Source of the DNA: an uncultured archaeon | Lineage (GTDB): Archaea; Thermoplasmatota; Thermoplasmata; Thermoplasmatales; Thermoplasmataceae | Assembly (NCBI GenBank): GCA_000965745.1 | Contig: CP009479.1 | Location: forward strand, 1,436,457-1,500,456 | DNA: 64,000 bases | Reading direction: 5' to 3' | Shown here: positions 19,553-64,000 of the stretch, in pieces | Layout: every line of letters begins with the position of its first letter | How positions within the stretch are numbered: position 1 is the stretch's first letter | The notes under the pieces: model-generated | Databases searched by the model: none | Told to the model about the DNA's origin: nothing | Seen by the model: the letters and a program-made list of their open reading frames with translations, nothing else | Program-made: the position numbers and the translations under genes

Positions 19553-19625
19553 TGCGGGTGCCGGGATTTGGACCCGAGGCACGAGCTTGGCAAGCTCGCG
19601 TGTTACCAGGCTACACCACACCCGC
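19553..19625 (-). tRNA. tRNA-Gly(GCC)
   Basis: Minus-strand cloverleaf of 73 bases. The acceptor GCGGGTG pairs with CACCCGC and is followed by discriminator A. The D-stem is GTGT/ACAC. The anticodon stem CGAGC/GCTCG encloses loop TTGCCAA, giving anticodon GCC. The T-arm loop is TCCAAAT. No intron and no encoded CCA. Confidence 0.96.
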
Positions 19626-35617: not shown

Positions 35618-35816
35618 ACAGATCATCAGGTTAATTGCGGTGATTGGGAATTGGTTACTCACATATAAATTCCAGTCATACTAGGTTTATTACGCTCAAT
35701 GTGCCCTTGCATCAGGTAATCTCTCGGGGCAGTGCATTTATACCATTTCTCCTGCAAACATGCATATATCTCTTTTCACTATATGGTTACAGAACCGAAT
35801 GTTGCCCACGTTCCAT

Positions 35817-35890
35817 GCCCGAGTGGGGTAGTCTGGATATCCTCGAGGCCCGCGGAGCCTCAGAGCCGGGTTCAAATCCCGGCTCGGGCA
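35817..35890 (+). tRNA. tRNA-Arg(GCG) with unusual C33
   Basis: Cloverleaf of 74 bases: acceptor GCCCGAG/CTCGGGC with discriminator A, D-stem GGGT/ATCC, anticodon stem GAGGC/GCCTC, T-stem CCGGG/CCCGG with loop TTCAAAT. The seven-base anticodon loop is CCGCGGA, giving anticodon GCG (arginine CGC/CGU). Position 33 is C rather than the near-universal U. No intron. Confidence 0.88.
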
Positions 35891-36027
35891 TCATAATAAA
35901 AGCTTGTTTCCAGCATAAATTCTTAAGTATTTACTGTCAGGGCATTTGCAAACGGTTCATTACTGCCTCAGTTAACAATTAGGATTCCTGCTTATATATG
36001 CCTTTCAGAATAAGTAATTGCATAGAT

Positions 36028-61851: not shown

Positions 61852-62820
61852 ATGAGCTTGAAAGTCATCGAGATCGAGAACCTGACAAAGATTTTTGGGG
61901 GGAAGCTCATTGCGGTGAACAATGCGAAATTCACAGTCGGGAACGGCACCATCTTCGGCTTTCTGGGCCCGAACGGTGCAGGTAAGACCACCAATATCAG
62001 GCTGCTACTGGGACTGATACGGCCAACGGCGGGGGAAGTCAGGGTCTTCGGGGAGCGAATGACCCCCGGCTCCTCCAAACTCCGCAGGAGGATGGGCTAC
62101 CTTCCCACGAACCCCAGGTTTCCTTCAAAAATGACCCCCATCAAGTACCTTGATTTCGTAGGGAAGCTCTTCAATCTCGGGAAAGAGGAGAGGATGAACC
62201 GACTCTCCAGCCTCCTCCGGTCGGTCGGGCTGCTTGGCGATTCCTCTAGAGAAATCGGCGGGTTCTCCACGGGGATGACGACGCGTCTGGGACTCGCTGC
62301 GGCTCTGATGAACGACCCTGAACTGCTGATCCTCGACGAGCCCACGTCAGGCCTGGACCCGGCCGGAAGGAGGTCCACCCTGGAGATGATAGCAGAGCTT
62401 GGCAAGGAGAAGACGATTTTCGTGTCGTCTCACATCCTGAGCGACATCGACAGGATATGCTCGGACGTTGTCGTGATTAGCGGTGGAAGGAGCATCTTCT
62501 CCGGCTCGATGAAGGACATGAAGAAGCGCACTCGCAGCAACATAATCCGTCTGGAACTGGAAGGGGATCTGATCAAGCTTTGCGAAGCGTTGAATGACGC
62601 GAAATGGGTCGTCAGCTTTGAAACGAGGGGCGGCTACGGCGTGGACATCATGTTCGCCCCCGAGATGCCTATGGCCGACGCGGTCAGAGAGGTGACGAAC
62701 CTCGTTTCGCGGCAGGGCTTGGACTTAATTTCCGTGACCTCCTCGATGTCCAGTATCGAGGACGCCTTTATGGAGCTGCTCCGAGGTGAAGAATCCCGTG
62801 GGTTCCTCAGAGCTGCATAG
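61852..62820 (+). CDS. ABC transporter ATP-binding protein
   Basis: A 322-residue ATPase: Walker A GPNGAGKTT near 43-51, the signature FSTGMTTRLGLA (a departure from LSGGQ), Walker B LLILDEPTSGLDP, and the switch VSSHILSDID. It pairs with the permease at 62786-63541 (35-base overlap). The pair lies in a block of clearly higher GC with CGC/CGG arginine codons, unlike the AGG/AGA elsewhere, so horizontal acquisition is likely. An export role for an unknown substrate is inferred. Confidence 0.93.
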   Translation: MSLKVIEIENLTKIFGGKLIAVNNAKFTVGNGTIFGFLGPNGAGKTTNIRLLLGLIRPTAGEVRVFGERMTPGSSKLRRRMGYLPTNPRFPSKMTPIKYLDFVGKLFNLGKEERMNRLSSLLRSVGLLGDSSREIGGFSTGMTTRLGLAAALMNDPELLILDEPTSGLDPAGRRSTLEMIAELGKEKTIFVSSHILSDIDRICSDVVVISGGRSIFSGSMKDMKKRTRSNIIRLELEGDLIKLCEALNDAKWVVSFETRGGYGVDIMFAPEMPMADAVREVTNLVSRQGLDLISVTSSMSSIEDAFMELLRGEESRGFLRAA

Positions 62821-63541
62821 CTTTGGGGGCACCCTCGCCCCCTTCCTTGCAATCGTGGAGGCGGACCTGAGAAGCCTCTTCAGCAGCAAGATAACTTACG
62901 GATGGCTGCTCGCTGCGGTCTTCATCCAGGTGGTGATTACTCTCGGTTCACGCTCGGCCGGGACGACTTCAAACGTGGTTTCCTCCGGGCTCTCGGACTT
63001 TGTCTACCTCTGGAGTCTGGTGATTATCGGGCTGGCCGCGAGTTCGGTCTCATTGGAGGCGGGAGAGCTTGCAGATTCCATAATGAGCAAGTCGGTCACG
63101 CGCCTCGACTACGTCTGCGCCAAGTTTGCCTCGCGGATTGCGTACACTCTGATCGGCTTTTCTGTGGTCACTGCGGTGCTGGTGGGCCTCGCGCTGAGGC
63201 TGGATGTCAGCGACTACAGCACGGCCGGGCTGGCGTCGTCGATAGTCCTTGTAGCGCTGGCCCTGGTGATGCTGACGGCGCTCGGGGTCGGACTCAGCGT
63301 CGCAATGCCGTCCACCGTCACGGCCATGGTCACCCTTCTGGTCCTATGGTACTCTATGACATTTTTCTTCCCTGTCGTCGGTCTCGGCGTCCTTTCCCCA
63401 GGTACGCTGGTGGGCAACCTGCCGGGGATTATCAAGGGCGAGTGGAGCTGGGAGAACTGGGAGACCTTTGCGGGTTTCGTCGCAATCTCAGGAGTCTCAG
63501 CGGCGCTGTCTTCGGCGTACTTCTACCTCAAGGACATTTGA
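62786..63541 (+). CDS. ABC-2-type permease
   Basis: A 251-residue protein with about six TM segments (e.g. YGWLLAAVFIQVVITLG, FVYLWSLVIIGLAASSV, VLVALALVMLTALGVGLSVA). Its GTG start at 62786 overlaps the ATPase gene by 35 bases, indicating coupled translation. Layout matches ABC-2-type permeases that pair with a single ATPase. Same high-GC composition as its partner. Confidence 0.88.
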   Translation: MKNPVGSSELHSFGGTLAPFLAIVEADLRSLFSSKITYGWLLAAVFIQVVITLGSRSAGTTSNVVSSGLSDFVYLWSLVIIGLAASSVSLEAGELADSIMSKSVTRLDYVCAKFASRIAYTLIGFSVVTAVLVGLALRLDVSDYSTAGLASSIVLVALALVMLTALGVGLSVAMPSTVTAMVTLLVLWYSMTFFFPVVGLGVLSPGTLVGNLPGIIKGEWSWENWETFAGFVAISGVSAALSSAYFYLKDI

Positions 63542-63772
63542 GCCTTCGGTTCGTTCCCAGCGGTTGCCCAGCCGGTGCTATACAGTAATCAACTCCCGGT
63601 TCCAAACTTTCTCCGGGTGGGACGGCTCAACGTCCGACACCAGCGCCCGGCAGGTCGCTTTGACGGCTCTAGGAGACATGACGGGCACGTCGTTGCCCTC
63701 AATCCAGCGGAGGTCTGCTTGTAACAGAAGACGACTTCAAGGCGCCCATGGATTGAGTTCTTGGTACATGAG
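63542..63772. other. Short GC-rich tail of the acquired block
   Basis: No intact gene. The minus strand holds a protein-like open stretch (about 63575-63725, containing RWIEGNDVPVMSPRAVKATC) that lacks a start and may be a fragment. The composition remains GC-rich to about 63720, then turns AT-rich. Confidence 0.25.
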
Positions 63773-64000
63773 ATGTCAATTAAAAAGTTCGTTTGTCCAC
63801 GCTTTCATGATGATGATAGCGTGAAAGTATCCTATCCGAGTACCGAATGTAGGAAGGGAGATGAATGCTTCCTTACGAGGATGCTAACCTCAAGATCATC
63901 ATCGCACACCCTTGGCCAGATATGGGATCATATCTGGTTTAAAAGAATATACAAGATCATACAGGCAGTCCCAGCGAAGTTCAAGGACCTCATCCTGGCG
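63773..64000 (+). CDS. Partial ORF running off the window end
   Basis: An ATG frame open for 76 codons to the window end, starting MSIKKFVCPRFHDDDSV and including HTLGQIWDHIWFKRIYKIIQ near the end. No family recognised; three Cys in 32 residues. It may be a real gene truncated by the window edge or a chance frame. Confidence 0.3.
   Translation, partial: MSIKKFVCPRFHDDDSVKVSYPSTECRKGDECFLTRMLTSRSSSHTLGQIWDHIWFKRIYKIIQAVPAKFKDLILA

Follow-up and report, generated by a model that had tools for sequence, protein, structure and literature searches.

C33 in place of U33 in a single-copy archaeal tRNA-Arg(GCG), and the recurrence of C33 among Thermoplasmata tRNAs

The U-turn by which a tRNA presents its anticodon is made by the uridine at position 33, which is for that reason taught as near-invariant, and a tRNA gene that encodes cytidine there raises the question of whether the base is real and, if so, whether the tRNA that carries it can work. 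U33 is near-universal in tRNAs, yet its presence does not strictly define the tRNA-Arg(GCG) isoacceptor. We address this question for a tRNA-Arg(GCG) gene in a 64,000-nucleotide stretch of DNA (the window), positions 1,436,457-1,500,456 of an archaeal genome that is assembled as one contig of 2,226,687 bases and is 99.4% complete. The features of the locus are as follows.

35817..35890, plus strand: tRNA-Arg(GCG) gene, 73 nt plus discriminator A73, CCA not encoded (ARAGORN; RF00005, 47.1 bits; ortholog identity 86-92%)
35851..35851, plus strand: C33, immediately 5' of the anticodon; all orthologs read have T here (sequence, ortholog comparison)
35852..35854, plus strand: anticodon GCG, which decodes CGC, plus CGU via G34 wobble (sequence, ARAGORN)
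35845..35861, plus strand: anticodon stem-loop GAGGC-CCGCGGA-GCCTC, with 5/5 stem pairs kept (sequence)
35779..35786, plus strand: AT-rich CTATATGG, a weak candidate TATA box about 38 bases upstream of the tRNA gene, at a position not conserved in orthologs

The ARAGORN call spans 35816-35892, within which the mature gene occupies 35817-35890. A preliminary description of this DNA had reported C33 together with full pairing of every stem. The C is present at base 35851, in an anticodon loop that reads C32 C33 G34 C35 G36 G37 A38, and pairing is complete in the acceptor (7/7), anticodon (5/5, GAGGC/GCCTC) and T (5/5) stems; the claim was slightly generous for the D stem, which consists of three pairs and a U13/U22 opposition that recurs in orthologs. 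The score of 47.1 bits, obtained in an RF00005 search of the gene's own genome, lies above the cut-off, and the gene falls under the Rfam gathering score when the window alone is scanned. C33 in an intact, single-copy tRNA-Arg(GCG) is confirmed; the gene folds as a cloverleaf with a seven-nucleotide anticodon loop, bears the GCG anticodon and is orthologous to archaeal tRNA-Arg(GCG). We looked for promoter sequence conserved upstream of the tRNA-Arg(GCG) orthologs and found none.

The rest of the tRNA set of this genome is uniform at position 33. RF00005 matches the genome at 45 places, a set that does not include its tRNA-Trp, and T33 is found in 44 of the 44 matches other than the window gene (43 read by ARAGORN and one by eye, an intron-containing tRNA-Tyr, L057, that ARAGORN mis-splits), the arginine tRNAs with anticodons UCG, CCG, UCU and CCU among them. 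A genome search for another tRNA-Arg(GCG), which the preliminary description had proposed, returned no second copy at E <= 0.001, the query matching one place only. As the other arginine tRNAs carry UCG, CCG, UCU and CCU, the window gene should be the sole standard reader of CGC and CGU. The tRNA-Arg(UCU) of this genome has a peculiarity of its own: T30 and T40 face each other as a mismatch in its anticodon stem, and the three relatives read conserve this mismatch (L048, L314, L318, L326).

The tRNA is needed, though for rare codons. CGU and CGC account for 71 of the 754 arginine codons (~9%) in window ORFs of at least 200 codons and for 8 of the 31 in two GC-rich ABC-transporter ORFs at 61852-63541 (Fisher p 0.006), in agreement with the earlier statement that these codons are rare in the window yet enriched in the GC-rich ABC genes. 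Their frequency per 1000 codons is 4.0-4.6 in a sample of the genome and 3.0-6.8 in five relatives; since this use lies inside the relatives' range, there is no clear codon avoidance of the kind that would mark a weak tRNA. The weaker decoding that the preliminary description expected of C33 is thus not demonstrated. A functional cost of C33 is nonetheless possible, because U33C in yeast tRNA-Gln gives a phenotype (PMC3664417, in excerpt). Over the ABC-transporter ORFs in the stretch from 61852 to 64000, GC content reaches 0.57 and arginine codon usage is unusual; this stretch is perhaps acquired DNA.

Among relatives, the orthologous gene carries T33 throughout. All 35 GCG loci read from relatives have T33, including three with an intron after the anticodon, as do all 8 named MAG contigs of Thermoplasmata. 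A pattern search of the family matched 57 of 71 genomes at 58 places, 57 of them with T33 and one, the window gene, with C33; the 14 genomes with no pattern match are all less than 90% complete and were left out of the count, and the gene is kept in 34 of the 34 family genomes of at least 90% completeness. T33 is thus the norm both in this genome and in its family, as the preliminary description had held. C33 in tRNA-Arg(GCG) is private to this genome in a comparison that took in a single assembly of it and no genus-mate. The window gene also has a second private base, in a variable loop that reads AGAG, a G that none of the other 57 family matches has there. In family f5 (L078, L079, L080), the anticodon of tRNA-Arg(GCG) is followed by an intron of roughly 50 bases, which the window copy lacks.

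C33 had also been treated as a near-unique oddity, a view that is not borne out: it recurs in Thermoplasmata, and it has been published for tRNA-Cys of Sulfolobales (PMC7668247, in excerpt). We searched with a class-I tRNA pattern requiring C33, using one T-loop variant on 400 Thermoplasmata genomes and the other on 300; with either base permitted at position 33, the two variants together detect 12 of 43 tRNAs of our own genome, and the searches thus sample about a quarter of tRNAs. The 400-genome search gave 47 matches in 43 genomes, and the 44 that were checked with ARAGORN comprised 34 C33 tRNAs, six false matches, which have T33 and arose through register shifts or an intron, and four ambiguous intron genes, which ARAGORN calls as Arg with T33 and which we read as intron-containing tRNA-Glu with C33. 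The 300-genome search gave 31 matches, all checked by ARAGORN, with 27 C33 tRNAs and four false. The resulting 61 ARAGORN-confirmed C33 tRNAs, drawn from up to 400 genomes and not independent of one another, have the anticodons Glu(UUC) (44), Arg(UCG) (5), Gly(UCC) (5), Gly(CCC) (2), Arg(CCG) (2), Gln(UUG) (2) and Arg(GCG) (1), and all 61 have C32, though the pattern permitted T32. For scale, 100 genomes yielded about 1,093 matches to the T33 version of the pattern, with overlaps counted in, and a verified C33 tRNA is present in 20 of those genomes. A control pattern with A33 or G33 matched 89 of the same 400 genomes; among the 26 loci checked there was no intact A33 or G33 tRNA, 24 being intron-containing Trp, Met, Tyr or Glu/Arg genes out of register and two giving no tRNA call. 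Among the loci examined, position 33 therefore appears to drift to C and not to purines.

Some of these cases lie close to our genome. In genus g6 of the same family, tRNA-Arg(UCG) carries C33 in five of five species, as a single near-identical copy per genome, which indicates that the base is inherited there and is not a read error. In genus g12, the draft genome G284 has C33 in tRNA-Arg(CCG), six genus-mates have T33, and position 33 is the sole difference between the G284 gene and its counterpart in one of those genus-mates, G293. Taken with the window gene, these cases suggest that every CGN-reading arginine tRNA gained C33 in some lineage of the family. Farther afield, C33 tRNA-Glu(UUC) is common to many genera of f14 and f15 and to f31 (L157, L160-L169, L180-L190, L222-L243) and looks old and stable there. 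On a 5,452-base contig (C94 of G123, L248), about 16 tRNA genes are densely packed on one strand, and several of them carry C33 (Gly, Glu, Val, Gln, Cys); the array resembles one of viral or mobile origin that was binned with a Thermoplasmata MAG.

We judge C33 to be real because the same swap is found repeatedly in tRNAs of related archaea, and we think it probable that the window encodes a genuine, working single-copy tRNA-Arg(GCG) whose lineage swapped U33 for C33, with the change tolerated and the tRNA used as transcribed. A single T-to-C transition would have turned U33 into C33, the tRNA would be used without editing and with C33 kept, and the loop would still turn after position 33, as a C-type turn that the ribosome could impose. 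Simple tolerance would be the likeliest mechanism, the stem and the remaining loop holding while the ribosome imposes the turn. Such a tRNA would read CGC and CGU, the roughly 9% of arginine codons counted above, and would be one of the recurrent U33-to-C33 substitutions in Thermoplasmata, on tRNAs with C32 and A38, that within the family would fall on CGN-reading arginine tRNAs. We infer that it is expressed, unedited and efficient enough. An intraloop C33-G37 pair was also modelled and set aside: its pairing probability is 0.057 with C33 and 0.002 with U33, the predicted minimum structures otherwise have the same shape, and blocking G37, as an m1G37 modification would, excludes the pair by construction.

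Several other readings would account for the C in different ways. The true base at 35851 could be T, as in the orthologs, with C arising from a base-call or assembly error, and it is consistent with such an error that C33 in tRNA-Arg(GCG) is known from this assembly only (1/58 family matches) and that the C33 of the draft genome G284, differing from G293 at that position alone, could be an error too. Against this, the genome is a single contig of high completeness, and across the acceptor, anticodon and T stems of 43 of its tRNAs, 731 pairs in total, there is one mismatch, the T-T in tRNA-Arg(UCU), which relatives share, so that the assembly's tRNAs are otherwise clean; moreover, the window gene bears another private base, and C33 has become fixed independently in the sister genus g6. 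We consider an error unlikely. As a separate matter, a restriction-motif cause for a miscall at CCGCGG was explored and led nowhere, the motif occurring 11 times in about 164 kb of the genome's own sequence. Decay of the gene, with all four CGN codons passing to tRNA-Arg(UCG), would fit both the rarity of CGU and CGC and the T33 of the genome's own tRNA-Arg(UCG) and tRNA-Arg(CCG), but the acceptor, anticodon and T stems have accumulated no mismatch and every near-complete family genome retains the gene, and inactivity is very improbable. The preliminary description had instead proposed C-to-U editing at position 33, which would yield U33 after transcription, as CDAT8 does at U8 in Methanopyrus kandleri. 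Recurrent C at the conserved U positions 33 and 55 within one class is the trace expected of a constraint relaxed by an editor; however, a PF00383 family search of the genome (E <= 1) returned two deaminases only, both small (one dCMP-deaminase-like, the other a small cytidine-deaminase-like protein), with a separate second domain found in neither and no CDAT8-like enzyme recognised. In M. kandleri, moreover, 30 of 34 tRNA genes have C8 and CDAT8 is needed (PMC3695527, in excerpt), as against C33 in 1 of 45 here. Editing is unsupported by these results, and we hold it to be highly doubtful. A small cytidine-deaminase-like gene and a tyrosine-recombinase-like ORF (L100 366-1340, plus strand, 324 codons by eye) adjoin the genome's tRNA-Pro(UGG), and this region is possibly an integrated element.

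C33 may, alternatively, have been selected rather than tolerated. With U at position 33, the sequence U33-N34-C35-G36 is UNCG, which is prone to a wrong (Z) turn, and C33 would shift the balance in CGN-reading arginine tRNAs. The three C33 cases in the family all fall on NCG anticodons (GCG, UCG, CCG), and an excerpt of PMC5311481 reports Z-turns in U33ACG loops. The same paper, however, describes Z-turns as possible in CNNG loops too, most C33 tRNAs across the class are Glu(UUC) and not NCG, and NCG arginine tRNAs are over-represented among the tRNAs that the pattern can detect (3 of 12 in our own genome). Selection of this kind seems quite unlikely.

A last reading draws on the other U-turn uridine, at position 55 of the T loop. 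C55 replaces T55 in seven of the 45 tRNAs of our genome (Gly GCC, Gly CCC, Asp, Glu UUC, Glu CUC, Pro UGG and Pro CGG), two of them in the window and five elsewhere (L045, L058, L060, L061, L065):

19553..19625, minus strand: tRNA gene with C55
55437..55509, minus strand: tRNA gene with C55

Two threonine tRNAs of the genome have A54. A C55 pattern matches 85 of 270 Thermoplasmata genomes. Every one of the 38 family genomes sampled is matched, at between 2 and 11 places, as are 5 of 5 in f3 and 2 of 3 in f4; family f5 gives no match in its 8 genomes, and outside the order 40 of 216 genomes match, most of them at a single place. When 50 C55 loci were checked, 46 were tRNAs with T54 C55 C56 and four gave no tRNA call. 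In this lineage, then, C has taken the place of U at both turns, often at position 55 and sporadically at position 33. Our search of open-licence PMC articles found no literature on either C33 or C55 in Thermoplasmata tRNAs.

A U-turn requires its first base, which may be U, G or protonated C, to donate a hydrogen bond to the fourth base's phosphate (PMC5311481, in excerpt), and an excerpt of PMC8080527 describes an equivalent turn at the T-loop pseudouridine as well as a mammalian initiator tRNA with C33. For Thermoplasma, Ferroplasma and Picrophilus, an excerpt of PMC3372908 gives cytoplasmic pH values of 6.2, 4.9 and 4.6 and describes tRNAs with extra C-A stem mismatches, which together suggest protonated cytidines. 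One could imagine that in Thermoplasmatales U33 and U55 are freely replaced by C, with protonated C (C+) supplying the N3-H of the turn in an acidic cytoplasm, so that these would be 'C+-turn' tRNAs. In its favour are the existence of U-turns on protonated C, the acid cytoplasm and C-A mismatches of those three genera, and the presence of C55 in 38/38 family and 5/5 f3 genomes against 40/216 outside the order. On the other side, our genome has no C-A mismatch in 731 stem pairs and is not extreme by that yardstick, C55 is found in 0/8 genomes of f5, and C33 tRNA-Glu occurs in families of unknown pH. We offer the C+-turn as a testable idea and not as a result, and we doubt that it is correct.

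Thermoplasmata are a class in which the exception to U33 is common enough to study. The repeated and, in some families, stable occurrence of C33 in elongator tRNAs, together with C55, provides natural material to test the need for the U-turn uridine, and C33 and C55 tRNAs could show whether cytoplasmic pH, editing or the ribosome compensates for its loss.

Known systems resemble the window gene in part. Like it, the tRNA-Cys(GCA) of Sulfolobales encodes C33 in an elongator tRNA of acidophilic archaea, although it serves cysteine, belongs to another phylum and accompanies its C33 with a G27-U43 pair (PMC7668247, in excerpt) that is absent from the window tRNA, an arginine tRNA with a standard G27-C43. 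The tRNA-Arg(UCG) of genus g6 comes closer, being a single-copy arginine tRNA with a paired anticodon stem and a CC-NCG-GA loop with C33; it differs in its UCG anticodon and in having C33 fixed across five species, whereas the C33 of the window gene is known from one genome. Eukaryotic initiator tRNA-Met is likewise a functional tRNA with C33, but it enters the P site directly, whereas the window tRNA is an elongator. The C8 tRNAs of M. kandleri also encode C where U is conserved, and again in an archaeon, but at position 8, in 30 of 34 tRNAs and with the dedicated deaminase CDAT8, as opposed to position 33, in 1 of 45 and with no such enzyme recognised. Set beside these systems, the window gene is a real tRNA that looks ordinary but has an unusual base, and it adds a further case to a known but rare kind.
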